Assembly (NCBI RefSeq): GCF_019599505.1
Contig: NZ_RKLT01000003.1
Coordinates: forward strand, 186,001-250,000
Source: Haloarcula nitratireducens
GTDB taxonomy: Archaea; Halobacteriota; Halobacteria; Halobacteriales; Haloarculaceae
Reading direction: 5' to 3'
DNA length: 64,000 nt
The translations under genes were made by a program, and so were the position numbers. This document shows positions 1-61,960 of the stretch, one piece after another. Positions within the stretch are counted from its first letter, which is position 1. Every line of letters starts with the position of its first letter. The notes beneath the pieces are model-generated. The model searched no databases. It saw only the letters and a list, made by a program, of their open reading frames with translations, and was not told where the DNA came from.

Positions 1-156
1 GACGCCCGGAGCGGGATTGAACCGAAACAAGAAATGCTCGCTCCCGTTGGTCGCTGCGCGTTCTCGTAGGGTTCAAACCCGTTCGTTACGCATTCACCGA
101 ACTCGTTCTTGCTCGGCGACAAAACGCCTCGCTGGAGGTCGAGTTCGGAAGAAGTA
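1..156 (-). repeat. tRNA-Asp tail repeat: partial T-arm/acceptor copies
   Basis: Downstream of tRNA-Asp (reading leftwards) there is an antisense T-arm-like piece at about 71-85. A linker at 31-66 with core GAAATGCTCGCT and CGCTGCGCGTTCTCG follows, and then a second sense copy of the T-arm and acceptor 3' end at 4-23. That copy differs from the tRNA by one deleted T in the T-arm. No cloverleaf can be built from these pieces, so they are fragments rather than a second tRNA. A very similar linker occurs beside the tRNA-Arg fragment near 43206-43236. Confidence 0.7.
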
Positions 157-229
157 CGCCCGGAGCGGGATTTGAACCCGCGTCACGACCGTGACAGGGT
201 CGTATGATGGGCCACTACACCATCCGGGC
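157..229 (-). tRNA. tRNA-Asp (GTC anticodon)
   Basis: Read on the minus strand, the gene folds as a full cloverleaf. The 7-bp acceptor pairs GCCCGGA with TCCGGGC, the anticodon stem CGACC/GGTCG encloses the loop CTGTCAC with anticodon GTC, and the T-arm contains GTTCAAATC. The discriminator is G and no CCA is encoded. Partial copies of its 3' end lie just downstream at 4-23 and 71-85. Confidence 0.95.
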
Positions 230-21531: not shown

Positions 21532-21778
21532 TTTCCTTCGCTCTCTACGTTCGCTTAGTCGTGGACTCGCCGAACATCGCGCACGCTTCGCGTCTGCTCA
21601 ATTCCGGCGAGTCAATGATTCTTGCGCCGCGAGTAAATCCGCGAGCGGTACGAATCGCTGTCGGTCCCTGGATTATAAGCTACGCCCGGAAATGCTCGCT
21701 CCGCTCGCGGGAACGGGGACGGCTTGATCTTCAGTCGAGTGCTAAAACTACTCGAATGGAAATCGCGTAGAATCCGGA
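21532..21778. repeat. tRNA-Ala and tRNA-Phe tail fragments
   Basis: After tRNA-Ala, an antisense copy of the acceptor end (TGGACTCGCCGA, 21560-21571) is followed by a sense copy (TTCCGGCGAGTCAAT, 21601-21615). Next to convergent tRNA-Phe, 21711-21743 repeats 33 bases of its anticodon-to-T-arm region with three differences. A GC-rich linker with core GAAATGCTCGCT lies at 21689-21711. No complete second tRNA can be folded. Confidence 0.7.
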
Positions 21779-22060: not shown

Positions 22061-22424
22061 GGTCTGCGGTAGCACAGACCCCGATAAATGACTTTCGACA
22101 GGTGTCAGTTCGGTAAGAGCAGCGGAACGAGGCTGCTTGATTCGACGTGCGCACATCCGCCAGTGGCTAATACCGGACGATCGGAACGAAAACGGGAGTT
22201 CGAATCCTAGTCGCCCACACGATGCTGGCTCCTCGCTTCGCTCGTCGCAGTCGCCGTCAGAAGTGGGTCCGGGCGTCCTGTGCGAACAGAGTGAGCGCAG
22301 GGCTCAGGAGAGCTTCGCTCTCCGGGCGGTTCGAATCAGGGAACGAAGCGTAGCGGAGTGACCGTGGTTCGAATCCGCCCGGATTATAGATTCGCCGCTC
22401 ACGGTTCGTTCGCGGTAGAATATA
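22061..22424. repeat. Intergenic region with tRNA-Val tail fragments
   Basis: No gene is visible. Reading downstream of tRNA-Val on the minus strand, an antisense copy of its T-arm and acceptor lies at 22363-22383. A diverged T-arm copy follows at 22322-22341, then an acceptor-end copy (TGGGTCCGGGCG on plus) at 22264-22275. GC-rich short inverted repeats such as GAGAGCTTCGCTCTC near 22310 separate them. A further T-arm-like piece (GGGAGTTCGAATCC) lies near 22195. Confidence 0.65.
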
Positions 22425-43011: not shown

Positions 43012-43323
43012 GCTCTCAGAATGCAGCAGCGCGGGTAAAAGCAAACCGGTCTCGGGCCAGTCGTGACGGCGTTCCAGGCGAGCGACAGAGCCGTCGCTCG
43101 CCGAGTAGTTCGCGGAAATGTAGCGTCCGGACGGAGTTCCACGCGAACGAAGTGAGCGTGGAGTACGTCCGGTCGTTCACGACCGGACGGAGATTTGAAC
43201 TCGCCGAGAAATGCTCGCTTCGCTGCGCGTTCCTCGTCTGCTCCAATCTCCGCAGAACGCATAACCGCTCACGGAAGCGAGCGACAGAACCGTCGCTCGC
43301 CGAGTAGTTCGCGGAAATGTAGC
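43012..43323. repeat. Native downstream tail of tRNA-Arg with repeated T-arm fragments
   Basis: No gene is visible. A 59-base block (GCGAGCGACAG to CCGGACGGAG) occurs at about 43078-43136 and 43278-43335 with a single difference. Between them lie a T-arm/acceptor copy at 43181-43200, a linker at 43206-43236 (core GAAATGCTCGCT, CGCTGCGCGTTC) and a piece CTCCAATCTCCGC at 43241-43253 that is antisense to the T-arm. These resemble the tRNA-Asp tail at 1-156. Confidence 0.7.
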
Positions 43324-43382
43324 GTCCGGACGGAGATTTGAACTCCGGTCCCTGGCTCCGCAAGCCAAGAGGATAGTCCACT
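43324..43382 (-). repeat. attL: truncated tRNA-Arg 3' fragment
   Basis: This 59-bp copy matches the intact tRNA-Arg from the discriminator side through the D-arm and then diverges (CCGCTTCGCGG). The 5' acceptor strand is missing, so no functional tRNA can form. It marks the left junction of the element. Confidence 0.88.
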
Positions 43383-43611
43383 CCGCTTCGCGGCCTATCC
43401 CGGGCCGATTAGACCTCTAACGACAATTTGCTAGCTTCGACAATACACAATAAATACTCCGCCCTTATAAAACCTAGGTCACTGGCTCTGGGCCAAGTTG
43501 GGTTCAGTCCAGAATCCAACAGTGTATGTTATTACTCATCAGCAGGTAGTGTCCAGTTAAGCGTGAAACGTGAAATGAGTGATTTTTTGTTTCATACCAG
43601 AAATAGCCGAG
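43383..43611. other. AT-rich intergenic segment inside the left element end
   Basis: This sequence between attL and the SWIM gene has no convincing gene. Short plus-strand frames lack start signals and coding character. Confidence 0.5.
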
Positions 43612-44397
43612 TTATCGGTCATAGAGACTGGATTGACTAGGATGTTGTTGGGCGTAATCAGATTCCTGAGTCGGCGGTGTCGTGGAATCTTTGTCTACTG
43701 CGGAATCATCATCCGTGGTAGTCTGGTCAGTAGAGCGGTCAAGGATAGAAAGTGCCTCAACTACAACCAGTATCGCCACAAAACGCATCCATAGTGTCCC
43801 GGGAGACATATTGAGAAGTACTAATACAATCTCTACGGGAATTGTGACTAGCACGGCAACTATGAGACCGCTGGCGAAAACACTGGTATCAACTTCGTCT
43901 GATTCGGATTCCTCTCTTGTATTCCGTTTGCTGTCAGTAGTGGACGAAGCTATCTCTACGCCAGTCTGTTGACTGTTTTTAGTGTCTGTATCTGGAGACG
44001 ATTCTGAGCTGTGGGAGGTACTTGCAGTAGATGTGGCCCTATTGACTTCGCTCTCATCTTTTGGAGTTGGATTAGACGATGAGCCTTGCTTGCTGAATCC
44101 GTCAGCATAGGGGTCTGAAGCTGGGGTGCTGTTGCGTTGCCTCACCGTATCTGCAACAGTGTTTGTTAGACCAGCCTGTGAATCAGTATCCATCTCCATT
44201 TTTACGTAGAGGATGTGCTTGCAGCCGCCGCTGGGTTGTCGTTTCTGCCAATCTGGACATTCACAAGAAGGTGTATCAAGTTCAACAAGATATTCAATGC
44301 CACGTGACCCGTTCACAAGATACTCGTTACTTCCAAAGCGTGCTGAAATGGTGATATTCTGATTCCTCGCGCGTCTTTTCCGTCTATCATCAACCAT
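43612..44397 (-). CDS. SWIM zinc-finger protein with C-terminal membrane helices
   Basis: This 261-residue protein has a SWIM zinc finger at residues 45-61: CEC, then CKH after eleven residues (CxCxnCxH). A long Ser/Thr/Asn/Asp-rich linker follows, then a hydrophobic region of about 45 residues (near 178-225) fitting two membrane helices, and a Gln/Ser/Asp tail. SWIM domains bind DNA or protein; tethering one to the membrane is unusual. A 16-bp palindrome lies just upstream. Function unknown. Confidence 0.72.
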   Translation of the reverse strand: MVDDRRKRRARNQNITISARFGSNEYLVNGSRGIEYLVELDTPSCECPDWQKRQPSGGCKHILYVKMEMDTDSQAGLTNTVADTVRQRNSTPASDPYADGFSKQGSSSNPTPKDESEVNRATSTASTSHSSESSPDTDTKNSQQTGVEIASSTTDSKRNTREESESDEVDTSVFASGLIVAVLVTIPVEIVLVLLNMSPGTLWMRFVAILVVVEALSILDRSTDQTTTDDDSAVDKDSTTPPTQESDYAQQHPSQSSLYDR

Positions 44398-44408
44398 AAG
44401 CAGAGAAA

Positions 44409-44424
44409 TATATTTGTAAATATA
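44409..44424. promoter_or_regulatory. Palindrome over the SWIM gene promoter
   Basis: TATATTT and AAATATA flank GT, a perfect 16-bp palindrome located 12-27 bases upstream of the SWIM gene ATG. It coincides with the expected TATA position, so a bound repressor would block transcription; it may instead simply be an AT-rich TATA element. Confidence 0.45.
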
Positions 44425-44460
44425 ATAATGTTCCTTACACTATGCTATAGCAGGCAGCAC

Positions 44461-45183
44461 TCAAATGTCATTTCTGTCAAATATCAATCTAACACTATTG
44501 TCTTTTAGCCATCCAGCTTTCTGCCCAAACTCTGGTATCTGATTACTAACTACGTCCCAGAACTCATCACCGTGATGCTGCTCAATCAAATGTGCAAGCT
44601 CGTGAACGACCAGATAATCCACAACTTCAGGGGGAGCCATAATCAGCCGCCAGTTCAAACTAATCGTCCCTCCAGTTGAACAACTCCCCCATCGGGTTCG
44701 CTGATTGCGAAGCTCTAGGCTCTCGTAGCTTACACTCATGGACTCCGCGTAGTGGTCCAGTCGCTCAACGAAGTGTTCCCGAGCTTGGCTCCGATAGAAA
44801 TTCTCCAGTACTTGCTTGACTGACGACTGTTCGACAGCACTCTTTCTCAGCCGAATCGCACCATCAGAGACCTCGTGTTTCGAGCGCGGTTCAATAACCA
44901 GTTCGTGGTCCTTGCCGAGAAACGGAAACTCTTCGCCGGCCTCGAAGGAACGCTCAGGAATATCCTCTCGATAGGATTCGTATGTGCGCTGTTTGTCTAT
45001 GACCCACGCCGCGTTATCTTTGAGCAAGTCGCTGGGCTGCGTCTTATCCGATTCTGGAAGCACGACAGATACCCCATGTATGTCAATATCAATCCGGGGC
45101 CCCGTCGAATCGGGGCTATATCGCACGTCGTACTCGATTGTCTGGCCCAGCAGTTCGATTTCCTGAGCGTGGGCTTCAGCCAT
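44461..45183 (-). CDS. YgjP/DUF45-family metallopeptidase linked to type I restriction
   Basis: This 240-residue predicted zinc peptidase has VVHELAHLIEQHHGDEFW near residues 188-205, with the HExxH motif and a third His. RWGSCSTGGTISLNWRL lies just before it, as in the family. It overlaps hsdR by eight bases and is the last gene of the restriction operon. YgjP-like genes recur beside type I systems, but their target is not established; turnover of a restriction subunit is one hypothesis. Confidence 0.87.
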   Translation of the reverse strand: MAEAHAQEIELLGQTIEYDVRYSPDSTGPRIDIDIHGVSVVLPESDKTQPSDLLKDNAAWVIDKQRTYESYREDIPERSFEAGEEFPFLGKDHELVIEPRSKHEVSDGAIRLRKSAVEQSSVKQVLENFYRSQAREHFVERLDHYAESMSVSYESLELRNQRTRWGSCSTGGTISLNWRLIMAPPEVVDYLVVHELAHLIEQHHGDEFWDVVSNQIPEFGQKAGWLKDNSVRLIFDRNDI

Positions 45184-48151
45184 AGTTCTGAATCAGGTAC
45201 TCTCGAATGGTGTCGATAAATTCGTCGTCGTCCCGAACCAGATGCCCAAGCTCTCGCTCGACAACCAGAACCTCAAGCAAAATCCGCTCGACTTCAGCGA
45301 TGGTCTGCTGATTAGTTTTCCAGCCGGCGTAGCCCCGGTCAACACGCTCATCGAATTGCGAGACGATTTCTTCAGCGACAGCTTCAGCTTGGTCGTCTGA
45401 CTCAATAGCGGAGGGCGTCTCCTCAGTCAGATGCGTGTAGATAGCAAACTCGGCGTCGTCCATGCCCTGCTGTGCTGCTTCCTCTTCGACACTCATTATC
45501 TCATCTTCGACCGATTGTAGGGCATCGACGGCCTCGGGGTCGCTAATCTGGTCGCCTTGCCAGCGCTCGATGATATCAGTCACGCGCTCACTCAACCGCT
45601 TGTATCGAGGATTCTGATTCTCGCGGGGATGCAGATGCTCTCGGGTAGCGTGCGCAATCTGTGACGCCTTCACACCGGGATTGTCCAGCCCTTCTACGTC
45701 TTCGAGGTACTCTTCCCCGAGCTTGTAGGTCGGGAAGTCCCGCTTGATTTCCGTGATTTCGACGTTCTCGCTAATTATGTCCCTCGTCTTCTCACGCATA
45801 TCCTCTTCCGGAGAGTCCTCGCCCCTGGTCGTGCGCTTGAACGCGACGTGGATACGACTCAGCCACTTGTAGTCGCGTTCAATGCCCTCACTAACGAGTC
45901 GGCCATCCGGGGCGACAGCTTCGTAGAGGTTCTGAAGGCGACGGAAGCCCTGTTTGAACTTCCGACGTTCTGGATGGGTGCTGACACGCTCGACGGCCTC
46001 GTAGGTCGCTTCTTGGGTGTCGTTCTTGGGAATGCCGTCGAAAATGTCCATGACCATCTCTAACTGGTCAACGAGGTCGTCAAAGAGTTCGTCCTTATCT
46101 CGGGCAGCGTAGGCTTGGGTCTCAGCGTCGTAGTCCAGCGCCTCATCAATATTCTCGAACACGCCCTGAAAGTCCACAATCTCGCCGTTCTCCTTCCCCT
46201 CAGCGGGGCGGTTCGTCCGGGCGATAGCCTGCATCAGATTGTGGTTCTTCAGGTTGCGGTCGAGATACATCGTTTTTAGAATCGGAGCATCGAAGCCCGT
46301 TAGAAGCATATTGTGGACAACCAGCAGCTTCGGCGTTTCTTCGTCTGCCTCCTCGTCGGTCTGCTTGAACGCATTGACGATGCTGTCTCGCTCTTCAGAA
46401 TCGGTATGGAACTGCCGAATTAACTGGGGGTCGTCGTTGGTCGCCGTGTAGAGAACTTCCACCTCGTCCTCGCCTCGACGGTCGATGAGTCGCTCACCGT
46501 ACATCGCGGCAGAGCGTCGACTGGGAGTGACGACCATCCCCTTCCAGCCGTTCGGAGCAATCTTCTCGGAATAATGGTGGTCAATCTCTTCGACCGCTCG
46601 CTCTACCCGAGGTTCGATTTCCGCGAGTGTAGTAGCATTGACGGTCTCGCGGATGAACTCTCGTTTCTCATCGGTAGTCATTCCCCGAAACTCTGCCTCG
46701 AATTCTTCGTCAAGTCCGGCCTCGTCTATCTCCCACCGCATATCGTGACGCAGCGTGAAGTAGACCGGCAGAATCAGCCCGTCGTCAATGCCTTGCTTGA
46801 CCGAGTACCTATGAAGGTAATCCTCACCCTCGGGGGAGAACTCTCGGAACGTGTTCTTGTCCTTCTCTCGTTCTCCTTCTCGAACCGGTGTGCCGGTAAA
46901 CCCGAAGTGGTAACAGTTGGGCAGCGCAGCATCGAGGCGGCTTCCGAGGTCGGCTTCCATAAATCGGTGAGCCTCGTCGGACATGACGACAACTTCGTCG
47001 TTGCCCTGTACGTCCGGGTCCACGTTTTCGAATTTCTGAATCGTCGTCAGGACAAGCTCGCTCTGCCCCTCCTCAATGAGCCGCTGGAGGTGGTCGATGC
47101 TTTCCGCCTCGGTCCAATGTTCCAGCGACAGGTTCGCCAGTTGGTCTCGCATCTGGCTGTTGAGCTTGTCCGTATCGACAATGATGAACACCTGCGGGTT
47201 GCGAGCTACCGAGCTTGTCAGGAGATTCTGCGCCGCGTAGAGCATCGTGAACGACTTGCCCGAGCCTTGGGTATGCCAGATGAGACCGCGTTTGTGGACA
47301 CCCTCGCTCACGCGGTCTAAGATAGCATTGACCGCGTAGTACTGCATATACCGAGGTACGATTTTCGCGTCTCCCCCGGCCCTACGCTCGTAGAAGACGA
47401 AGTTCTTTAGGAGGTTCAGTAGCGTCCGAGGATTGCAGAGCGCTTCGACCGCCTGCTTCACGTCGTTGTCGTCAGCGTAGGCTTCAGGGGCGTCGTTCCA
47501 TGGTTCGTAGAATTCCTTGGGTGCGCCGACAGCTCCATAGCGGAACTCAAACTGGTCGGCAGCTATGTTGAACAGGCCCGGCACGAACAGCCGGGGCACA
47601 TCGTCCTCGTAAGCATCGAGGTCGCTCACAGCGTCGTGCCAATCGTTGTCCTGTGTTTGGCTCTTGAGTTCCATCGTAACCAGCGGAATCCCGTTGATAA
47701 ATAGGCTCACGTCTGGGCGGATGGTCGTCTCACGAGAGACAGAGAACTGATTCACCGCGTGGAAGCGATTATTCTCCGGGTCCTCGTGGTCGATGAGGTC
47801 AACATAGACCGTCTCCGTCGAGCCGTCAGTGTGTTGTACATTGAACGTTTTCCCCTTAGTGAGCAACTGATGGAACGCTCGATTGCCGTCCATCAGGTTC
47901 TCGGTGTCGAGGTCTCGGCGGAGAGAGGAAACGAACTTGTCTACGTTGTCCTCGGTCACGGCGTCGTTGAGCGCGACGACTTGCTCTTTCAACAGGTTCC
48001 AATAGATTACTTCGTGACTGTCGCGCTCGTAGGCCTCATCGAGAACGTTCGCACCACGGTCGCCATCTTGTCCATGAGTTTCCCAGCCAACACCGTCGAG
48101 CCACGAGAGAAGCGAACGTTCGACGCCGCCCTCGGATGGATTGCTAACCAT
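45176..48151 (-). CDS. hsdR: Type I restriction enzyme, R subunit
   Basis: This 991-residue motor and nuclease subunit has an N-terminal PD-(D/E)xK nuclease near residues 145-168 (PDVSLFINGIPLV then ELKSQ). A superfamily 2 helicase follows with Walker A TQGSGKSFTML near 290-300, the DEAH box MSDEAHRF near 389 and GFTGTPVREGE near 412-422. The C-terminal helical part joins the methylase complex. No frameshift is evident and the length is typical, so it looks intact. It overlaps both neighbours by eight bases. Confidence 0.95.
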   Translation of the reverse strand: MVSNPSEGGVERSLLSWLDGVGWETHGQDGDRGANVLDEAYERDSHEVIYWNLLKEQVVALNDAVTEDNVDKFVSSLRRDLDTENLMDGNRAFHQLLTKGKTFNVQHTDGSTETVYVDLIDHEDPENNRFHAVNQFSVSRETTIRPDVSLFINGIPLVTMELKSQTQDNDWHDAVSDLDAYEDDVPRLFVPGLFNIAADQFEFRYGAVGAPKEFYEPWNDAPEAYADDNDVKQAVEALCNPRTLLNLLKNFVFYERRAGGDAKIVPRYMQYYAVNAILDRVSEGVHKRGLIWHTQGSGKSFTMLYAAQNLLTSSVARNPQVFIIVDTDKLNSQMRDQLANLSLEHWTEAESIDHLQRLIEEGQSELVLTTIQKFENVDPDVQGNDEVVVMSDEAHRFMEADLGSRLDAALPNCYHFGFTGTPVREGEREKDKNTFREFSPEGEDYLHRYSVKQGIDDGLILPVYFTLRHDMRWEIDEAGLDEEFEAEFRGMTTDEKREFIRETVNATTLAEIEPRVERAVEEIDHHYSEKIAPNGWKGMVVTPSRRSAAMYGERLIDRRGEDEVEVLYTATNDDPQLIRQFHTDSEERDSIVNAFKQTDEEADEETPKLLVVHNMLLTGFDAPILKTMYLDRNLKNHNLMQAIARTNRPAEGKENGEIVDFQGVFENIDEALDYDAETQAYAARDKDELFDDLVDQLEMVMDIFDGIPKNDTQEATYEAVERVSTHPERRKFKQGFRRLQNLYEAVAPDGRLVSEGIERDYKWLSRIHVAFKRTTRGEDSPEEDMREKTRDIISENVEITEIKRDFPTYKLGEEYLEDVEGLDNPGVKASQIAHATREHLHPRENQNPRYKRLSERVTDIIERWQGDQISDPEAVDALQSVEDEIMSVEEEAAQQGMDDAEFAIYTHLTEETPSAIESDDQAEAVAEEIVSQFDERVDRGYAGWKTNQQTIAEVERILLEVLVVERELGHLVRDDDEFIDTIREYLIQNYG

Positions 48152-49520
48152 ACTTGGCGATTTCCCCGGGCACTTCTATGGTCGTGTCAGTCGTGCGTAC
48201 TGTTCCCGAGAGAAGGTCTTGCATTAGACCGCGTTTGAGGGCCTTTAAGTGACTCACTAGTCGATTTTCTACTTGTATTTCTTGGTTAATACTTTCGATA
48301 ATATCCTTCAACCTTCTTTGCTGTTCAACAGGCGGTAGAAGTACCTCCACACGCTTGGCACGGAATAAAGAAAGTTTGGGCTGTCCCGAACCAACAGTAT
48401 GGCGACTAATTTCTCCCTGCCCATAGTATGATTGCAAATAAGCGAGAAGATACTCTGGAATCGCACCGTTTAAATTTGTGATTTTAGCCGCGTTATCGGT
48501 AAAGTGCACTCCATCTAGTTCCGGTGGAACGATGCCAATGCCACCGATGCTGTGTCCATTAAGAGTGAGGAACAAATCCTTGCTATTGATGTATCCTCTA
48601 TTCATCTCTTCAAATGAGTCCTCTTTCAGATGTTTTACCTCATCCTCAACTATCACACCGTCTTCCAAATCTGAAATCCGAATAAATCGATAGCCGGTGT
48701 CTTCATCAGAGTAGTCGTCACCAGGGGGGATTCTAATGCCGTTTTTCACATCCGCAATATTCCCTAACTCTATGATGTCCCACGATTCCGGGATTTGGAT
48801 TGGTTTGGGTCCTAGTCGTCTTTCAACTAATTCTTCTTCAGTAAAACCGCCAGATAGGAAATCGGATATGAGCGCTTCCTTAATTCTATCATATTGGCTG
48901 AGCACAGCGTCCGTTTTCTCAATCGCCCGGTCAACCGTGTAGAGTACGGTGGCAATTTTGCGCTGTTCCGAGAGTGGGGGAACAGGTAGGTTGATTTTGT
49001 TTAATGCTTCTAAGTATAATCCCCCCTGTGCCGTTGCTCTTGAGCGTGAATCTGCTTGTTTGTGGAATCGCTGACTATCAGTAACAAATTTTAGAAATTG
49101 AGAAGATACTTGTTTATTTGTTCTGAGAAGTGCAACGCTCCTCTGGAGAGCAAAACCTGACCTTTTACCAACAACTGCTGAACGTCCGATGCTCCCTACG
49201 ATTGTCATCAGTAAATCACCCTGTTGAATTGAATGGTTATTGTCCATCTGCTCAAAATCAGATGGAGAAATATAGCTCGGGTTTTTGTCAAAATCTATCC
49301 TCCCATTTTGTATATTCTGACTGCTAAGAATCTGAATCCCGTTTGACACACGCTTTGGCGGATTGTGGCTCCCATCGGAGACTAATTCAGTTACTTCGTG
49401 AATTTTTCTCTCATCCCAATCTGATGGAACATTCCCCCAATTGGTAGGTTTAATATTCTCTTGCTGTTCAGATTTATTATTCTCATCCGCAAAATCGCTT
49501 AGCGTCATATCCTCACTCAT
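48144..49520 (-). CDS. hsdS: Type I restriction-modification specificity subunit
   Basis: This 458-residue subunit has two target recognition domains, each followed by a conserved helical spacer. The first spacer includes NLPVPPLSEQRKIATVLYTV near residues 173-192 and the second LLPPVEQQRRLKDIIESI near 398-415. The two domains set a bipartite target that cannot be read from sequence. The gene is visibly AT-richer than hsdM and hsdR, as is common for rapidly exchanged S subunits. Confidence 0.94.
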   Translation of the reverse strand: MSEDMTLSDFADENNKSEQQENIKPTNWGNVPSDWDERKIHEVTELVSDGSHNPPKRVSNGIQILSSQNIQNGRIDFDKNPSYISPSDFEQMDNNHSIQQGDLLMTIVGSIGRSAVVGKRSGFALQRSVALLRTNKQVSSQFLKFVTDSQRFHKQADSRSRATAQGGLYLEALNKINLPVPPLSEQRKIATVLYTVDRAIEKTDAVLSQYDRIKEALISDFLSGGFTEEELVERRLGPKPIQIPESWDIIELGNIADVKNGIRIPPGDDYSDEDTGYRFIRISDLEDGVIVEDEVKHLKEDSFEEMNRGYINSKDLFLTLNGHSIGGIGIVPPELDGVHFTDNAAKITNLNGAIPEYLLAYLQSYYGQGEISRHTVGSGQPKLSLFRAKRVEVLLPPVEQQRRLKDIIESINQEIQVENRLVSHLKALKRGLMQDLLSGTVRTTDTTIEVPGEIAKYG

Positions 49521-51018
49521 AGTTTAATACCTCCATATGCTCATTCATTGACGCCTCTATTTCGTCGCGCTCGGCCTGCAATTCGCGTAACTTTGCCAGT
49601 TCCTCCTCCACGTTAATGTTTTCTTCCGGTTCGGTCGTATCGACGTACAGAGCGATATTGAGGTTGTAATCGTTCTCTCGAATCTCATCAAGCGACACCG
49701 TACGACTCACACGCTCTTCGGTCGCCCACTCTCGGAAGTTCTCGATAATGTGGTCGAGTCCATTCTCGGTGAGTTCGTTCTGATTCGATAACTCCTCGTA
49801 GAATGCCTCATCTGCGGCGTGGATAAACTGCACCTCGCCCTCGCGCTCGGCAGGCTTGTCCGAATTCAACACAAGGACGGCGGAGGGAATTGAGTTGTTT
49901 TGGAACAGGTTTTCCGGAAGCCCGACAATGGTCTCAATCATATCGTTTTCCAGCATCGGCTTTCGATACCGTTGCTCGTGCTTGCGGAACAGCACACCGT
50001 GAGGAATGACGATAGCGGCCTTTCCTCCGGAGTCGTCACCACGCTCGGGGTTCTTCAGTTGCTCCGCCATATGCATAATGAAGGCGTAGTCCCCTCGGTC
50101 AGCACGCGGCAGTTTCTCGTGCCAGTCGAAGCGCCCGTATGGGTCATCTTGGAGGTCGCTCTTGGCCCAGTCTGCCGAGAACGGGAAGTTCGCCAGCACT
50201 CGGTCGAAGCGCTCTAGTTGGTTGTCGTCCTCGGAGGTGAACGCCGGACTGGACAGCGAATCTTCGCGCTCTATCTCTCCGTTCAGCCCATGGATAGAGA
50301 GGTTCATCTTCGCAATCGCCGCGATATCCGGGTTGATTTCCTGTCCGGTGAACGTTAGCTTCGATGGGTCGCCGCCTTGCTCTTCGCGGTAGTAGCGAGC
50401 GGCCTCTATGAGCATCCCTCCAGAGCCGACAGTCGGGTCGTGGAAAGTATGCCCGTCCTCAAACTCGTCTACCAGCCGAACACAGAGACGCACAATGTGG
50501 GGCGGCGTGAAGAATTGACCCCCAGACTTGCCCTCTTCTTCCGCGAAGTGGCGAACGAGGTCCATATACGCCTCTCCGAGCATATCCGGCGGCACGCTGT
50601 CTCGGGAGAGGTCATATTTCGAAAGGTGTTCGACTAGCTTCCCGAGCCGGTCGTCGTCCAGCGCGTCGGCGTCAATGTAGTCAGCTCTGAAAACGCCTTG
50701 TAGTTCGGGATTCGCTTCAGTCAGCTTATCGAACGCCTCGTTGAGTGCTTGGTCTACGTTATCATTGACGGCGCGAATGTCTTCCCAGAGGTAGCCTTCA
50801 GGAACGACAGGCACGTCGTAGAGGTTATCCCTACGAGCGAAGTCCTCGCCGTATTCCTCAATGTTCTGCTCGTACTGCTTCTCAAATTCATCAGAGATAG
50901 ATTTGTAGTACACCAGCGGCAGAATGTATTCCTTGTAGTCGGTCGGGTCAACAGCGTCCCGAATAATGTCAGCACACTTAAAAAGGTGCGACTCTAGGTC
51001 GTTCAGCGAGAGAGGCAT
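49513..51018 (-). CDS. hsdM: Type I restriction-modification N6-adenine methyltransferase
   Basis: This 501-residue methylase has an N-terminal helical domain (LESHLFKCADIIRDAVDPTD), the SAM-binding motif DPTVGSGGMLIEAARYY near residues 193-209 and the catalytic NFPF near 276-279, a variant of NPPY/NPPF. It methylates adenine in the target and supports HsdR cleavage of unmodified DNA. An in-frame ATG at 51045 would add nine residues. It is the first gene of the operon and divergent from the zinc-ribbon gene. Confidence 0.95.
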   Translation of the reverse strand: MPLSLNDLESHLFKCADIIRDAVDPTDYKEYILPLVYYKSISDEFEKQYEQNIEEYGEDFARRDNLYDVPVVPEGYLWEDIRAVNDNVDQALNEAFDKLTEANPELQGVFRADYIDADALDDDRLGKLVEHLSKYDLSRDSVPPDMLGEAYMDLVRHFAEEEGKSGGQFFTPPHIVRLCVRLVDEFEDGHTFHDPTVGSGGMLIEAARYYREEQGGDPSKLTFTGQEINPDIAAIAKMNLSIHGLNGEIEREDSLSSPAFTSEDDNQLERFDRVLANFPFSADWAKSDLQDDPYGRFDWHEKLPRADRGDYAFIMHMAEQLKNPERGDDSGGKAAIVIPHGVLFRKHEQRYRKPMLENDMIETIVGLPENLFQNNSIPSAVLVLNSDKPAEREGEVQFIHAADEAFYEELSNQNELTENGLDHIIENFREWATEERVSRTVSLDEIRENDYNLNIALYVDTTEPEENINVEEELAKLRELQAERDEIEASMNEHMEVLNYE

Positions 51019-51110
51019 ACCCCGACTGTTCCTTGCAATCATCATATGTCCTGCGGTGACAGTCGCCTACTGTATCGCCTGCTCTCGTAATTCGGTTAGG
51101 AAAATACAGA

Positions 51111-51120
51111 ATATTTACAC
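51111..51120 (+). promoter_or_regulatory. TATA-like box for the zinc-ribbon gene
   Basis: ATATTTACAC lies 23-32 bases before the ATG at 51143, the distance for a leaderless transcript, within the divergent region shared with hsdM. Confidence 0.5.
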
Positions 51121-51142
51121 TAGGCTCCGTACAGAGGGTACT

Positions 51143-51490
51143 ATGAAACCACAACCGGGTGACGTTGTGGGGTGTATGGACTGTCAAGCAGACTTTGAAC
51201 TTCCACCTCCCGCTGAGGATATCATCTATATTCCAACCTGCCCAGAATGTGGTTCGGTCGTTGATGGGTACGAGGATGCGGTTGATTTTAGGAAGCGAAA
51301 TTCAGAGGCTCAGGAGGCCTGCAAGACACTCGAAAGAGAACTAGAGGAGATTATCGACCAAACCCAATCTATGCGAAATCGAGTTCCCGAAGGTTCATCA
51401 CTAGAAGCCCTTCGTGAAGCGACTACAAGACTACAGAGTCTTACGGCGTTTGCTACTAATAGAACTGAAGAGCTTACAGATGAAGACTGA
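51143..51490 (+). CDS. Zinc-ribbon and coiled-coil protein divergent from hsdM
   Basis: This 115-residue protein has an N-terminal four-cysteine zinc ribbon (CMDC near residues 11-14; CPEC near 33-36), then a long amphipathic helix (EACKTLERELEEIIDQTQSM) and a second helical segment. I do not recognise the family. It is transcribed away from the restriction operon from a leaderless-type promoter. A regulator or accessory of the operon is conceivable, from position only. Confidence 0.65.
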   Translation: MKPQPGDVVGCMDCQADFELPPPAEDIIYIPTCPECGSVVDGYEDAVDFRKRNSEAQEACKTLERELEEIIDQTQSMRNRVPEGSSLEALREATTRLQSLTAFATNRTEELTDED

Positions 51491-51995
51491 AGGATAGTCC
51501 CTCGAAAGAGACCACCTTCCTGACCTAGTATCTGTCAGCATGGAGGTCGGCAGGTTCCCATCGGTATTGAGGTCGCCCCTCGGCGGGATTACCACAATGC
51601 ATACTTCCATGGATTGGTGAATTTGCTCCATTCGAGCGCTGAATTTTCTGGCGCTTCCGAGGTCTGGGTAACTGGGTCTCGGTCTGGACCATTTCGTCAG
51701 CTGTCGAAGTTTTCAAAATCCCATCTCAGAGGACAGAATGCCGAAAAATCAGGCAAATTGCGCAGAATTTTGTGCGGCGACTTGCGTAGGTACTACCTCT
51801 AGGGGCGGGGTCTAAAAGTCAAAACTCCAATACTAATACATAAACATAATAATTACGATACTATATGCCAGATAGTAGCTTCCGTTGTACAGCGTTTTCA
51901 GGAACTACTCTGTTTTCACTAGTTTAGAAATGCCACTTGAGAAAAGGAATAGCTGTATGTAACATCTGTTAGATGTGATACGTATTTGTAAGCAT

Positions 51996-52126
51996 GGAGG
52001 GCTCTATGCTTCCTAGTTCGCTGGTTCAGTAGATGATTCAGCTAGATGGACCTAGTTCACTAATTCAGTTAGAATAGGTCTATACAATAGATTCGAAACA
52101 TCGAGGGCTCTATGCTTTCAAGTTCG
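51996..52126 (+). repeat. Iteron-like direct repeats
   Basis: Two near-identical 25-base units (GAGGGCTCTATGCTT followed by TCCTAGTTCG or TCAAGTTCG) are about 105 bases apart. Related CTAGTTCGCTGGTTCAGT and CTAGTTCACTAATTCAGT lie between them. They occur in an AT-rich setting and could be a former replication or regulatory site. Confidence 0.5.
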
Positions 52127-52207
52127 TTGATGTAGCTAGAGTTCTAGATACGTAGATAGAACTACTGAGTAAAAAGACTATAAGAAAAACAGCATCAGTA
52201 TCTTCGC

Positions 52208-52381
52208 GTGGGCGCGGGCAGCGCGACCCTGCCGACCAAGAGCCGACAGATTGCAACGGCCTCAGAGGCGACTGTAGCCGTTCGACGGGGTAAACGTAGG
52301 TTTGGTCTTGGACACGTCAGGAATCGCTCAGAAACAATCTGGGACGACATAGAGCGACGATATGACTCACGCCGAGAGTGA
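52208..52381 (+). CDS. Possible small basic protein
   Basis: This 57-codon frame from a GTG contains LPTKSRQIATASEATVAV and ends ETIWDDIERRYDSRRE, a plausible small DNA-associated protein. No promoter or ribosome site is clear, and the frame opposite is also open, so it may be spurious or a remnant. Confidence 0.25.
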   Translation: MGAGSATLPTKSRQIATASEATVAVRRGKRRFGLGHVRNRSETIWDDIERRYDSRRE

Positions 52382-52922
52382 CTTGCCCTCTGCGTGTTCA
52401 GTCGGGATACTGGTGGTCGGTATGGATTCCGCGATTCATCTAGTGCTTCTGAGAGGCGACTGAATCCGTTTGAAGGAGCAGATGGGGGAAACATCATGGA
52501 GGCCCAAAATATCGTTATGAGCCGGACTGAGCCATCTCAGAATCGACGCTGAGTGGCTTTGGGTATAGCTACTCGCTAGTGAGACCGGAGCCAATCAGCA
52601 TGGACGCTCTCGACTGGACGCCGTGATTTGCCACAGTGATAACAGAGACGACATTGGGCCATGAGATGGATGTATCGAGCCGAGAGGATGGTTGGGCCTC
52701 GGAACTCTTTCGAGCCTTTTGAGAAACCTTCCGAGCCACTCACCAGCAAATGTGACTAAGCAAAACGGCTGGTAATGCGGTCGGTCGGGATAAACCTCAA
52801 CGTCCAAGAGACTAGAATCATATCATATCTTAGTTCATATAATAATTATTATCACTTCTCGCCGCTGGCCATCCTGTGAGGAAAACGGGTTCGACAAGCG
52901 CCGCTCCATGCTTCGAAGCTAG

Positions 52923-53075
52923 CCGAGGAAAAATGCAGACTGGAATCCGCTGCTGGACGACTTCTTCCGACGACTCATCGTCTTCCCAGAAGAGTTACCG
53001 GGTTTGCTCCGAAGCTTGCCACCCTTGGGAGACGACCGAATCTTGTGGGAATGGGAAGAGGAGCCACGGTCGTAG
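52923..53075 (+). pseudogene. Remnant coding frame (truncated at the 5' end)
   Basis: A stop-free stretch of 50 codons without a start reads NPLLDDFFRRLIVFPEELPG and later ILWEWEEEPRS. Its protein-like composition and abrupt stop directly upstream suggest the C-terminal piece of a decayed gene. The family is not recognised. Confidence 0.35.
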
Positions 53076-53396
53076 TTGAGCAGGTCGCTGGTATCGGTCG
53101 TAGAGGAGCCGATACTCGGCTGGCGTGGCTGGACTTCTCCGGCTCGGTCAACGAGTCGAGCTTAGAAATAGCCGCCCTTGTCTACCAACTGAACCTCAAG
53201 CGTATCTCCGATTTCCCCAGCAGGGACGTGGATAGTCTTTGAGTTCAGGAGACGAACTCAGGTCAATAACTATGGATTGTTCGTCGAATCCGTACGTGGA
53301 TAGTGGTCTAAGCAGTAGTTTCGAGTGCCGATGAGAACATTTATTTAATTATGATTTGAACCCAGAGTTAGCGATTTGGTGTGGCGTTGAGAAAGG

Positions 53397-53615
53397 ATGT
53401 TTGAGAAACAGACACTCACTATTGTCGGCGTTGTGGCAACTGGGGCTGGGGTGGTTTTAACGATGTTAAGTAAGATGGTCAATTTATTTTCAAACGATAT
53501 GTCTACAATGGGAGCTGTAGTCCTTGCCGGAATGGGCGGTTTTCTTATTTCGACTTTAATTCTAACTATTGATAATAGAATTAAAATGAAGAAGATAATG
53601 GAGGGAGAGAAATGA
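53397..53615 (+). CDS. Small two-helix membrane protein
   Basis: This 72-residue protein has two hydrophobic helices (about residues 8-28 and 42-60) and a lysine-rich C-terminus (NRIKMKKIMEGEK). The AT-rich composition differs sharply from chromosomal genes, consistent with element cargo. It overlaps the next small gene by four bases (ATGA), so the pair is probably co-translated. Family and function unknown; a virus- or plasmid-type membrane protein is likely. Confidence 0.6.
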   Translation: MFEKQTLTIVGVVATGAGVVLTMLSKMVNLFSNDMSTMGAVVLAGMGGFLISTLILTIDNRIKMKKIMEGEK

Positions 53616-53806
53616 ATCCCGATGGACTTGTTGATGCCTTTGTCTCAACAATTATGCTCGGAGTGTTGCTTGTCGTCGCTGTCTATCTTCTCAACCCGGA
53701 TATTGGAAAGGTATTAATAGATATTCTTCCAGGATTTATTGAGTTGATAATATATACTATTATTATAATTGTATTAGTGTCAATGATTTCTCAGATGTTT
53801 GAGTAG
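53612..53806 (+). CDS. Small two-helix membrane protein, coupled to its neighbour
   Basis: This 64-residue protein has two hydrophobic helices (about residues 9-29 and 38-60, the latter Ile-rich) separated by a short loop NPDIGKVLIDILPG. It starts within the stop of the preceding gene. Its composition and pairing resemble small membrane protein pairs of archaeal viruses, but no family is recognised. Confidence 0.6.
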   Translation: MNPDGLVDAFVSTIMLGVLLVVAVYLLNPDIGKVLIDILPGFIELIIYTIIIIVLVSMISQMFE

Positions 53807-53936
53807 AGACTCAGTTTGTGAGGTGGTGAGTCATGTGATATGGAGTGTTGGCAAAGTACAGGTCGTCGGACTAATCAGGTTACCACCCAATAGTAGGTTG
53901 GATGCAAAGGGATAACGGGGCATACCCACTCTGAGC

Positions 53937-54488
53937 TCAGCACGACCGCTGTAACAATTATAAATATATAAATTACGCCAATTTCATTCTTATCATACAG
54001 TGGTTCAAGCCAAAATAAGATACAGTGCCGCTGGTGGTATTGTATTAATAGCTGTTCTTATTGGGGTCTTAGCAGATGTTATTAGTCCGAATGAAGGGCT
54101 TGCAATAGGTCTGCTAATTGGATTTGTTGGGATTGTATTTTCACAGATGCTTAATCTCATGGTGGTAGGAATTAGCGAATGGCGGTTAAGAACGATAGGG
54201 GGCGCTGTAATCGGATTGGTTGCTGCAATCGGGCTTCCAGCAATTATACTGGCTATCTTGGGGCTTCTTAATTTAGAACCGGGTAATACTCTTGGTCGAA
54301 CGTACTTTGTAACAATTGTTTCTAGCGGAGTGAGCTCTATTATTAGCTTAGATAATAATATGTAATTTAGGCTGGAGAACATCATAGCAAAGAGACTGGA
54401 CTTGATATAACCTATAGTAATGGACGGCTTCGCTATCTATGTTCCCAAGTTGATACGCGAGATTCCACATTATTCAGCACGACCACTG
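53937..54488 (+). repeat. 15-base repeat flanking the 54.0 kb membrane protein gene
   Basis: TCAGCACGACCGCTG at 53937-53951 and TCAGCACGACCACTG at 54474-54488 are direct copies with one difference, on either side of the gene at 54000-54365. Each is followed closely by an AT-rich run. Confidence 0.5.
54000..54365 (+). CDS. Four-helix membrane protein of the element
   Basis: This 121-residue protein from a GTG start is almost entirely hydrophobic, with four helices near residues 9-28, 32-55, 66-88 and 97-115. A TATA-like ATAAATATATAAATTA lies about 30-45 bases upstream. Flanked by near-identical 15-base repeats. Its role is unknown; codon use is AT-rich like the other small element genes. Confidence 0.6.
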   Translation: MVQAKIRYSAAGGIVLIAVLIGVLADVISPNEGLAIGLLIGFVGIVFSQMLNLMVVGISEWRLRTIGGAVIGLVAAIGLPAIILAILGLLNLEPGNTLGRTYFVTIVSSGVSSIISLDNNM

Positions 54489-54609
54489 AAACTTATTGCC
54501 GGTAAAGGCTATCAATAGGACCAGAAATAATAGAGACGCTAGGTCAACCCCACCTCGCTTCAATGCTTTTCAACTAACGCTAAATGAATGCTAGTGTGTA
54601 CTTGTTCGG

Positions 54610-54873
54610 TTAGAAATCGAGGAGCCCCCTTCTCAGTAGTCTTCTCGCTTCCAGAGCGTCTTCAGGTAGTTCGTCGTGGATGATTTCTAACTCTCGCTGA
54701 CTGAAGCTGAACTCGTCTTTTGCTGGTTCCGTGGGCGTCCTCCAGACGGTCTCGGCAAGCACCCGATTCTCAAGCTCGCGCTGCTGCTCTCGGTCGTCTG
54801 TCTCTCGGTACTGTCGGATGTACTCAGCAAGCTGTTCGGTGTCGATTTCGACGTTGGTGGTGTTGTCGGTCAT
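54610..54873 (-). CDS. Small acidic protein downstream of the integrase
   Basis: This 87-residue helical, strongly charged protein (DTEQLAEYIRQYRETDDREQ; ELPEDALEARRLLRRGLLDF) starts three bases after the integrase stop, so it is in the same operon. It has no cysteine cluster or classical helix-turn-helix that I can see. An integrase accessory or excision-direction factor is a reasonable guess from position and size. Confidence 0.65.
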   Translation of the reverse strand: MTDNTTNVEIDTEQLAEYIRQYRETDDREQQRELENRVLAETVWRTPTEPAKDEFSFSQRELEIIHDELPEDALEARRLLRRGLLDF

Positions 54874-54876
54874 GGT

Positions 54877-55986
54877 TTACCCCATCTTGTCGAGTGCGTC
54901 TCGACGCTCTTCTACGGGAACCTGGTCGTAGCGCATCGTCGTCGTCTCTGACTTGTGGCGGAGTTGGGCCTGCGCTGCTGCTAGCCCCTCTTCTCGGGTC
55001 ATATAGGTACCAACAGAGTGGCGAATCATGTACCACGAGATTTTCCGATTTTGCGCGTCTATGCCTGCAATCTCGAAGAGTCGCTTGAGGACGTGACGAA
55101 GAGCAGAGGTTCCGTAGGGATTCCCCTCGCGCGTCAGCCAGAGTTCGTCACGGCCTTCGTAGACCTCGTAGCGCTCTCGTTCGGTCAACCAAGCATTGAG
55201 CGCGTTTGCTGTTTCTTCGCGAATACTGACCGTCCAGTTGCCGACGTTCTTGCTGCTCTCTTCCTTTGGGATACGAAGCAGTGCGTTCTCAGCATCGACC
55301 CACGAGACGGTGGCTCGCTCGACCTCGACGGGACGAAGCCCGGCGTCCAAGGATGCCCACACGAGGCTGGGGAACTTCCAGCTATTCGCTTTCTCCCAGT
55401 CCTCTGGTGTGACCTCGGCCTTCGGTTTCGAGAAGCGCTGTGCCAGGTAGCTCTTCCACTTCTCCCGCTCAGTCGAAGTGAGACCACTGTAGCCAGGAAT
55501 TGAGCCGTACTCAAGTGCTGCTTCTCGGGTTTGTCGCCGTTCTTCTTTCACCAAGAAGTCGCGCGGTTCAGTGCTGGCTGACGGCTCGGTGAAGGTGATG
55601 CTCGGCTCCCACGTTTCACCTCCTCGCTCGTGAGCTTTCCATTTGAATAGCCGCTTGATTGCACTCTGGGTGTTGTTCCGCGAGTAGTCACCCTCGTCCT
55701 TGCGCGCGAGATGCCGCATATAGGCATCGGCGTCTCCGTGGTCAATGTCAGTCGTGAAGCTCTCCCGCTCGTCCCAGACCCAGCGGTAGAACAGGTCAAG
55801 CCGCTGAGCGGTGTTGAGAACGGTGCGCTGTGCATATCCGTCTGCTTTTTCCGGGTGCTTGCCAAACACCAGCAGCCACTCTATCAGGTCTCGACGGTGT
55901 TCTCGGTAGGTCATCTGCTGGCGTTCGTCGAGTCTCGCGCGCGCAGGTTCGGGTACGAGGGGAATGCCTTGGTATTCTTCAGGCAT
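54877..55986 (-). CDS. Tyrosine recombinase/integrase
   Basis: This 369-residue XerC/D-type integrase has an N-terminal SAM-like core-binding domain (about residues 20-120). Its catalytic domain shows arginine I in AGLRPVEVERA near 223 and box II as YMIRHSVGTYM, where the usual first histidine of HxxR is tyrosine. RHKSETTTMRYDQV carries the second His/Lys and the nucleophile Tyr near residue 352. It lies beside the intact tRNA-Arg, the expected place for the element's own integrase. Confidence 0.92.
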   Translation of the reverse strand: MPEEYQGIPLVPEPARARLDERQQMTYREHRRDLIEWLLVFGKHPEKADGYAQRTVLNTAQRLDLFYRWVWDERESFTTDIDHGDADAYMRHLARKDEGDYSRNNTQSAIKRLFKWKAHERGGETWEPSITFTEPSASTEPRDFLVKEERRQTREAALEYGSIPGYSGLTSTEREKWKSYLAQRFSKPKAEVTPEDWEKANSWKFPSLVWASLDAGLRPVEVERATVSWVDAENALLRIPKEESSKNVGNWTVSIREETANALNAWLTERERYEVYEGRDELWLTREGNPYGTSALRHVLKRLFEIAGIDAQNRKISWYMIRHSVGTYMTREEGLAAAQAQLRHKSETTTMRYDQVPVEERRDALDKMG

Positions 55987-56170
55987 CGTGGTCCCTCCCG
56001 GCAGGTTCGAAGCGCCGCGCTCTATGCTTTTCAGTGAGCTTGGTCTGACACGTTGGCCGAATCGCCAGACGGCGGTCGATTGGCCTGTTGTGCGTGGTCG
56101 GCTTGGCTATAGGCGTCATGTTTTTGTGCCCTGCCAAAGCCAGCAGCTTGCCGTTAGAAGGTCTGAGAAA

Positions 56171-56243
56171 CGTCCGGACGGAGATTTGAACTCCGGTCCC
56201 TGGCTCCGCAAGCCAAGAGGATAGTCCACTACCCTATCCGGAC
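56171..56243 (-). tRNA. tRNA-Arg (GCG anticodon), right end of the element
   Basis: On the minus strand the acceptor GTCCGGA pairs with TCCGGAC. The anticodon stem TTGGC/GCCAG encloses TTGCGGA with anticodon GCG, and the T-arm has GTTCAAATC. The discriminator is G. Its 3' 59 bases are supplied by the element and duplicated at 43324-43382, so the integration left a complete tRNA. Confidence 0.95.
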
Positions 56244-61545: not shown

Positions 61546-61606
61546 TGAATTTCTGCGAAATTCACGGCCTAGCGGACGGAGTCCGCTTATGGCGTGAATT
61601 CCTGCG
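61545..61606 (+). terminator. Hairpin directly after tRNA-Asn and a repeat of the junction
   Basis: GTGAATTTC and GAAATTCAC form a perfect 9-bp stem with a TGC loop at 61545-61565, starting at the tRNA discriminator. It could be a terminator or processing signal. The junction sequence GGCGTGAATTTCTGCG (61542-61557) recurs with one change at 61591-61606. Confidence 0.5.
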
Positions 61607-61751: not shown

Positions 61752-61826
61752 GGGCCCTTAGCTTAGTCTGGTTAAAGCGATCGGCTCATAACCGATTGAG
61801 CGCTGGTTCAAATCCGGCAGGGCCCA
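61752..61826 (+). tRNA. tRNA with CAT anticodon (probably Ile2, or elongator Met)
   Basis: Acceptor GGGCCCT pairs with AGGGCCC, the anticodon stem ATCGG/CCGAT encloses CTCATAA with anticodon CAT, and the T-arm has GTTCAAATC. The discriminator is A. The acceptor and loop resemble Ile2-type tRNAs, in which the C is modified to read AUA, but elongator Met cannot be excluded by eye. Confidence 0.85.
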
Positions 61827-61960
61827 TCGAACACCCGAGCGAAGCGGGCGTGTGAACGTACTGCGGATTCGAACCCCGGCAGGCGAGTGCGACGAGTCTG
61901 CAGTCGGTTCCAGATCCGGCAGGGCCAATCGTTCTGCGGGAGAGCGGCATCGTCGAGCCG
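61827..61960 (+). repeat. Tail fragments after the CAT-anticodon tRNA
   Basis: Two degraded copies of its T-arm/acceptor end follow. GGATTCGAACCCCGGCAGGCG lies near 61865-61884, and GGTTCCAGATCCGGCAGGGC, with two changes from the tRNA, starts at 61906. They are separated by GCGAGTGCGACGAGTCTGC. Neither can form a tRNA. Confidence 0.65.

Follow-up and report, generated by a model that had tools for sequence, protein, structure and literature searches.

Behind the tRNA-Asp gene in a 64,000-nucleotide stretch of the Haloarcula nitratireducens genome (the window) lie an antisense T-arm, a linker hairpin and a second, partial copy of the tRNA 3' end. We estimate a probability of roughly 50% that this tail is a member of a haloarchaea-wide set of structured, non-coding tandem units behind tRNA genes, which would be selected as an RNA trailer and would multiply at T-arm joints. 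The sense arm of these units matches the tRNA beside it, the linkers come in several exchangeable types, and nearly all units lie downstream of a tRNA on the same strand. Sequence comparison gives good support for a haloarchaeal family of structured tRNA-tail units, and a function as an RNA trailer appears likely.

The tail occupies positions 156 to 1 on the minus strand. The gene and the parts of its tail are as follows.

157..229, minus strand: tRNA-Asp(GTC), the gene ahead of the tail (156-230 by aragorn; 157-229 by Rfam RF00005, 61.5 bits)
82..156, minus strand: trailer module, from the tRNA-Asp 3' end to the antisense T-arm; by eye, similar to a module in the genus orthologue L184
69..81, minus strand: antisense T-arm (inverted repeat I1, 92% complementary to the tRNA T-arm)
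22..68, minus strand: type-B linker hairpin, with an outer stem of about 67-63 with 31-27
3..23, minus strand: sense copy of the T-arm and acceptor 3' strand of tRNA-Asp (direct repeat 2-18 / 156-172; score 38)
10..82, minus strand: full hairpin of antisense T-arm, linker and sense T-arm (covariance model R1, 35.5 bits, the best match of the window)

The antisense arm, CGGGTTTGAACCC at 81-69, is complementary to the T-arm of tRNA-Asp with one base missing, and the sense copy, GGTTCAATCCCGCTCCGGGCG at 23-3, is one A shorter than the gene. Between them the full linker reads GAACGCGCAGCGACCAACGGGAGCGAGCATTTC, with the type-B core GAACGCGCAGCG..GAGCATTTC at 63-31. All three elements that an earlier note on this DNA had described behind tRNA-Asp (antisense T-arm, linker and partial second copy of the tRNA end) were thus located. 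The same note had pointed to a nearly identical linker in a tRNA-Arg tail 43 kb away and to flanking arms that follow the respective tRNA. The ends of the two linkers do match, around a centre that is shorter in the tRNA-Arg tail, and the arms of each tail match its own tRNA, tRNA-Arg in one case and tRNA-Asp in the other. The tRNA-Arg tail and the other tRNA tails of the window contain the following features.

43323..43395, minus strand: tRNA-Arg copy ArgA, whose 3' 60 nt are identical to tRNA-Arg ArgB and whose 5' part differs
43254..43321, minus strand: trailer module of the tRNA-Arg tail
43239..43253, minus strand: antisense T-arm of the tRNA-Arg tail
43208..43232, minus strand: type-B linker of the tRNA-Arg tail (R1 match 43252-43187)
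43180..43202, minus strand: sense T-arm and acceptor copy of tRNA-Arg (direct repeat D3; score 41)
43078..43136, minus strand: second acceptor and trailer copy in the tRNA-Arg tail (direct repeat D1, 59 nt, 98% identical to 43277-43335; score 52)
61863..61931, plus strand: tRNA-Met tail unit (R1 match 61863-61920; direct repeat 61809-61829 / 61911-61931)
21600..21616, plus strand: sense 3'-end copy in the tRNA-Ala tail (direct repeat D3)
21714..21743, minus strand: copy of the anticodon-arm region, not the T-arm, in the tRNA-Phe tail (direct repeat D1, 93%; score 50)
22264..22383, minus strand: tRNA-Val tail, with an inverted copy at 22364-22383 (I1, 100% complementary) and two direct partial 3'-end copies
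61590..61606, plus strand: copy of the gene's last bases and trailer in the tRNA-Asn tail (direct repeat D2, 94%)

The tRNA-Arg tail has the same module order as the tRNA-Asp tail, plus the extra acceptor and trailer copy at 43136-43078, and its linker reads GAACGCGCAGCG-AAGC-GAGCATTTC. A pattern search for GAACGCGCAGCGN{0,30}GAGCATTTC found exactly two places in the window, the Asp and Arg tails, and none in 100 shuffles. In the tRNA-Met tail, the sense T-arm and acceptor copy extends to 61931; the tRNA-Asn repeat is mostly trailer; and the tail of the second tRNA-Arg (56171) has no copy of its own 3' end. The copied anticodon arm in the tRNA-Phe tail indicates that other tRNA parts can be copied too. 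By folding energy, the tRNA-Arg tail folds better than shuffles on both strands (z about -3), and the tRNA-Asp tail alone folds no better than shuffles (minus-strand z -0.06 as DNA and -1.24 as RNA). It is covariation that carries the case for structure.

To compare tails across genomes, we scored each tRNA against every tail and counted the tails for which the own tRNA was strictly best among other types. In the nearest genome (G001; 97% identical over the tRNA-Asp/rpoH stretch, 99% complete, 43 tRNAs), the own tRNA was best in 22 of 43 tails compared to 1 of 43 upstream regions. A genome of a different haloarchaeal family (G087) gave 17/43 tails and 0/43 upstream regions. For a genome of the same phylum outside the haloarchaeal order (G068), the counts were 2/50 and 2/50, and neighbouring tRNA genes accounted for each of the five tails with a score of at least 30. 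The self-similarity proposed earlier therefore exceeded chance, in tail versus upstream and own versus other tRNA, in G001 and G087 and not in G068. About half of a genome's tRNAs have no tail copy. Pure chance was ruled out as an explanation by these controls and by search controls that returned zero matches.

We then examined how the linkers are placed. Type B, the linker type of the tRNA-Asp tail, gave 22 matches in 18 of 32 genus genomes, lying 49-163 nt downstream of a same-strand tRNA, namely Arg(gcg) in 10 cases, Leu(tag) in 10, and Leu(gag) and Gly(gcc) in 1 each. For type A, a search of genomes from 84,980 species with the pattern AGTCGCAGCG..CGACCGTCT found at least 120 stretches; because the pattern fixes 10 + 9 letters, the constancy of those letters proves nothing. 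The resulting convenience sample holds at least 131 matches in 128 loci, 8 of them viral. Among the matches listed, a same-strand tRNA lay upstream within 500 nt in 84 of 131, with five in other placements; the distance was 41-378 nt with a peak near 57-62 nt, and 37 tRNA names were represented. The remaining 47 listed matches comprised the 8 viral ones, many on bacterial contigs, others at locus edges, and haloarchaeal arrays with no detected tRNA. Within the whole G001 genome, all six type-A places are in tRNA tails, 55-182 nt away. The linker patterns read backwards gave zero matches in the same searches.

Some arrays lie apart from a detected tRNA. The type-A linkers of L056 and L080, loci from two Halorubrum species, adjoin a different palindrome, and no tRNA was detected in the 8 kb of either locus. 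In L070, where the linker lies at 4433, and in L110, where it lies at 3074 of the reverse strand, the copied sequence is the 3' end of a gene that resembles purH and has an AICARFT domain; by eye, in these two species, degenerate copies of the gene end, inverted and direct, surround the type-A linker. This arrangement suggests that what is targeted may be the 3' end of a gene, whether or not that gene encodes a tRNA. On an 828-kb plasmid of Natronorubrum bangense, L228 1501-1623 is a tail-like unit with no annotated tRNA; the plasmid table carries no RNA genes, so a tRNA may be present there. The neighbouring frame in L052 had no Pfam match.

The tails share a common plan, tRNA - T - (aT - L - sT.acc - T)n, in which T is the trailer module, aT the antisense T-arm, L the linker hairpin, and sT.acc the sense T-arm with the acceptor 3' strand. 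The trailer module is often a hairpin like TTTTGTGGC-GAAC..GTGA-GCCACAAA; its strict form occurs in 62 of 174 tails, compared to an average of 4.1 and a maximum of 10 in shuffles. Among the type-A matches listed, 84 units were used, and the copy was anchored (at least 16 of 22 matches) in 68 of them. The sense copy spans from about T54 to the tRNA 3' end. In 51 of the 68 anchored units listed, identity to the tRNA extends just one or two bases before T54; in 54 the copy ends at about the tRNA end, and in 14 it continues into the trailer. Mean identity in these 68, which were selected for at least 16/22, is 94% over 22 nt. The own tRNA scored at least as well as the best other type in 79 of the 84 sense copies listed, which bears out the earlier proposal that tRNA 3' ends are copied. 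The antisense arm follows its own tRNA in 19 of the 84 listed units, and spans only the near-universal T-arm. CCA after the discriminator was found in none of the 68 anchored copies listed, which rules out mature tRNA as the copying template and indicates that the template is the gene or the precursor. The linker starts no more than 100 nt from the tRNA in 63 of the 84 type-A units listed, leaving no room for a cargo gene. By eye, modules join one another at T-arm sequences in either orientation. A TTTT run, a possible terminator, lay within 15 nt in 11 of the 40 copy-bearing tails and in 7 of the 46 others. An insert of another kind, GTTCGC-stem-GCTCAC and similar, occurs in the G001 tails of tRNA-Arg(cct), Ser(tga) and Asp (L008, L029, L020); it lies inside sense copies, between the T-arm and the acceptor, and by eye seems to fold better on the opposite strand.

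To assess whether the structure is selected, we examined covariation. Alignment A1 used 32 of 46 units with a 36-nt linker, the 14 with out-of-register flanks being omitted, which favours helix 1. In A1, 90.6% of cells pair compared to 77.4% after shuffling, both sides have changed in 104 cells compared to 32.9, and the covariation score is 0.388 compared to 0.149, a value reached by 0 of 500 shuffles; slid versions scored 0.05-0.12. RNAalifold recovered the linker stems unaided and did not predict the aT/sT helix. Less selected than A1 are the units listed, of which we used 84 for the outer stem, 76/84 for the tips, and 74/84 with at least 6 of 9 pairs for wobbles in the aT/sT helix; related genomes in these sets are not independent. 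In the outer stem, adjacent to the linker, pairing reaches 0.94 and 0.96 among the 84 listed units compared to 0.37 and 0.42 in shuffles, with A-T, G-C and C-G all common; the third and fourth positions of this stem pair in only 0.64 and 0.45. Inside the covarying stems, a tandem G.A mismatch is retained in 72-73 of 76 units listed, and a three-base GNA tip is present in 63 of the 76, with all four bases at N. The stems thus covary beyond both shuffled and slid controls, which supports the earlier suggestion of a selected structure. A general abundance of low-complexity hairpins in haloarchaea was rejected as an explanation: the strict tip motif, with at least four paired bases, occurs at one place in the window, on the other strand of the tRNA-Arg tail, and is therefore not scattered everywhere.

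From 32 A1 units, none from the window, we built the covariance model R1. At E up to 1 it found four matches in the window, each in a tRNA tail: one for Asp (82-10, E=3e-8), two for Arg (E=0.0017, and E=0.0082 on the other strand) and one for Met (E=0.0023). Across whole genomes it found 20 matches in G001 and 18 in G087, and G068 had none. All 20 in G001 and 16/18 in G087 lay no more than 500 nt downstream of a tRNA on the same strand, and the two remaining G087 matches adjoin, by eye, tRNA 3'-end-like sequence. The earlier note had made its idea depend on linkers not lying mostly away from tRNAs. This held for type B (22 of 22) and for the model (36 of 38), and less completely for type A, in the proportion given above for the matches listed. 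Searching 148 genomes of the phylum, R1 was positive in 22, with 3-23 matches each, and all 22 belong to the 24 genomes given as members of the same genus, family or order. It had zero matches in the other 126 genomes of the phylum, 106 of which were placed outside the order from table order, being unlisted by name. Beside this split of the model between haloarchaeal and other genomes, the exact type-A pattern gave 28/53 and 0/241. What had been noted in two tails of one genome is thus a class-wide and modular unit.

Which molecule folds can be approached from strand asymmetries. In the units listed, wobbles in the aT/sT helix were 42 G.T compared to 11 A.C, and in the inner stem 7 compared to 0; the outer stem (3 compared to 2) and the trailer hairpin (2 compared to 4) showed no bias. 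The G.A pairs assign the fold to the tRNA-sense strand, as the opposite strand would have C.T. Together, wobbles and G.A pairs indicate folding of the tRNA-sense strand, either as RNA or as single-stranded DNA. According to a passage in PMC3544259 that recounts Heyer 2012, 11 tRNA fragments were found in H. volcanii, all but one from pre-tRNA 3' trailers, which, as far as that account goes, indicates that trailers can be transcribed and stable. Given the orientation with transcription, the tolerated wobble and these trailer fragments, we lean to RNA as the folded form.

In the reading we favour, selection would act on RNA, on the 3' trailer of the pre-tRNA. Once tRNase Z has cut, the trailer would fold, with the antisense T-arm pairing with the sense copy behind it, and this pairing would spare the tRNA's own T-arm from antisense invasion. 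Units would multiply and swap linkers via recombination or template switching with joints at T-arm sequences, so that each new unit would re-copy the local tRNA from T54 to its end. Weighing against this reading are the tails with no copy, the two helices with no wobble bias, the GNA tips, the antisense arms that mostly do not follow their own tRNA, the aT/sT helix missed by RNAalifold, the limited share of tails with the strict trailer hairpin, and the ordinary folding energy of the tRNA-Asp tail. More tentatively, and with less confidence than an even chance, we suggest that the units may constitute a mobile or self-copying element that carries no genes, is spread across the order and resides chiefly at gene 3' ends, nearly always at those of tRNAs; it would rewrite its arms from T54, have a selected fold of the sense strand, and be accounted for by no recombinase family tested.

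Single-stranded DNA could fold in the same way. The units might be a folded single-stranded DNA cassette, like a cargo-less array of integron attC sites, exchanged by a recombinase at G53/T54 with the tRNA as the fixed end. According to a passage in PMC4686876, DNA mini-hairpins that have a G-C stem and a GNA tip, whichever base stands at N, are extraordinarily stable, and by this rule, as given there, the GNA tips in 63 of the 76 listed units speak for single-stranded DNA. The sharp start of the copies at G53/T54, the tandem arrays and module swapping, and the orphan arrays adjoining tRNA 3'-end-like sequence also fit such a cassette. However, we found no candidate recombinase. The integron integrase TIGR02249 was over the cut-off in 0 of 41 relatives, and also in 0 of 14 control genomes, so that this detection lacks a positive control. 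Y1 transposase PF01797 was absent from G001, whose 22/43 tails are positive; it is present in 26 of 41 genomes, and past mobilisation is thus possible. With IntI below the cut-off and Y1 missing from G001, neither integron nor REP/IS200-type machinery need be present. The spacing (linker no more than 100 nt from the tRNA in 63/84 listed) leaves no space for a cargo gene, and the tolerance of G.T is equally expected of RNA. We therefore consider a DNA cassette unlikely.

The units vary between species of the genus. At the tRNA-Asp/rpoH locus of 29 same-genus genomes, 0, 1 and 2 sense copies were present in 7, 18 and 4 genomes, and several linker types and several trailer types occurred in varied combination, the linker labels in this comparison being rough (L176 is really type A). 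Between G001 and the window, the trailer of the tRNA-Asp tail is partly common, and the trailer start and the linker differ. Modules reassort between species at this orthologous site. In a genus subgroup (L186-L196), the whole tRNA-Asp gene is tandemly duplicated, with a spacer of about 50 nt, ahead of the tail units. Since about half of tRNAs and 7 of 29 Asp orthologues have no copy, the units would have no essential role in tRNA maturation. The units could also have arisen with no selected function, by template switching, end joining or gene conversion between T-arms, with hairpin-templated repair keeping the stems complementary. Joints at T-arm sequences common to all tRNAs, tandem duplication of whole or nearly whole units (as in L091 and in the tRNA-Lys(ctt) tail of G001) and the seven Asp orthologues with no copy agree with this. 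Against it, the tandem G.A persists amid covarying stems, where palindrome repair should erase mismatches, and linker letters are common across the order while phylum genomes outside it have zero model matches. On balance we doubt this explanation, and rate it as unlikely.

Integration at tRNA genes is a further possible source of partial copies, and the window itself contains, at tRNA-Arg(gcg), an integrated element about 12.8 kb long. It runs over 43396-56170, from the intact tRNA-Arg (56171-56243) to the ArgA remnant, and the two bounding tRNA-Arg copies have 60 nt in common. It encodes a tyrosine integrase (54877-55986) beside the intact tRNA-Arg and a type I restriction system (HsdR 45176-48151, HsdS 48144-49520, HsdM 49513-51045). 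G001 has a single tRNA-Arg(gcg), and its tail starts with the same sequence as that of ArgA. We read ArgA as the probable distal end of the integrated element, with the old tail kept. No tail unit was found at the integrase end of the element; units stay on the old downstream side. An array in L164 that has no tRNA nearby sits just past an integrase gene.

Attachment cores of T-loop-type integrases run from T54 to the tRNA end, and the sense copies have the same span. Each sense copy could accordingly be a scar, the attR left by such an integrase after loss of the element, and integration is the usual account of archaeal partial tRNAs in the relevant parts of PMC9897764, PMC7921747 and PMC3119063. 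The window element, with no unit at its integrase end and the old tail at its distal end, and the L164 array are poorly explained by scars. Virus or plasmid cargo was also rejected. A 126-nt unit used as query matched none of 50,697 phage records and two, both haloarchaeal, of 72,556 plasmid records, and the 8 viral-contig matches among the type-A matches listed are unlinked to tRNAs. Scars also leave the antisense arm, the common linker and the close spacing unexplained; in 63 of the 84 type-A units listed the distance from tRNA to linker (100 nt or less) is too short for an element gene between copies. We regard this origin as highly improbable. The earlier note had proposed that the structure could affect tRNA 3' processing, termination or integrase decoys. 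Least probable of all is that the extra T-arm and acceptor copies are kept as decoys to absorb elements otherwise entering the tRNA: the 94% mean identity of the anchored copies (chosen for at least 16/22) would suit a decoy, but the window element sits at the tRNA itself and not at the tail copy, and a decoy needs neither antisense arm nor common linker.

The nearest analogue known to us is the E. coli tyrT locus, where 178-bp tandem repeats carry a copy of the tRNA 3' end and an RNA (RtT) is made from them. Like the tail units, these repeats stand in tandem behind a tRNA whose 3' end they bear. To our knowledge they have no antisense T-arm or common covarying linker hairpin, and they belong to one bacterial tRNA operon, whereas the tail units occur at most tRNA types of a whole archaeal order. 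RtT has an Rfam family, and Rfam release 15 at the gathering score gave no RtT homology for the window and 10 unit loci, which matched only RF00005 tRNA. Enterobacterial REP/BIME elements alternate sense and antisense motifs with exchangeable linkers and form hairpins, and the tail units resemble them in all these respects. Unlike REP/BIME, the tail units are bound to tRNA tails with a motif specific to the adjacent tRNA, and G001 has no Y1 transposase. The attC R-box has the consensus GTTRRRY / RYYYAAC; the T-arm copy reads GTTCRAA in most units, with C as its fourth letter, and does not match GTTRRRY. Tandem units, structure over sequence, a fixed joint near GTT and an array-proximal fixed site are shared with attC arrays as portrayed in part of PMC9668308. 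The tail units differ from attC arrays in that their arms copy a tRNA, there is mostly no cargo space, and no integrase was found over the cut-off. Remnants of att sites likewise place a copy of the tRNA 3' end downstream of an intact gene, according to portions of PMC9897764, PMC7921747 and PMC3119063. Unlike these remnants, the tail copies are separated from the tRNA by about 80-200 nt, which hold a shared hairpin and an antisense arm.

A section of PMC7921747 counts 11 partial tRNAs in Haloferax gibbonsii. Partial tRNAs beside intact ones, in that species and in Haloquadratum, are generally ascribed to integration in excerpts of PMC7921747, PMC3119063 and PMC9897764. Our literature search, mostly outside subscription journals, found no published description of the tail unit or of its analogues. 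If the reading we favour is true, some haloarchaeal 'partial tRNAs', such as the 11 of Haloferax gibbonsii, may be unknown structured elements and not scars, and the annotation of integration sites and of small RNAs behind tRNAs would be affected. Haloferax and Haloarcula are genetically tractable, and the tail units would offer a genetic system for how a repeat tracks its adjacent gene and for whether long tRNA trailers function.
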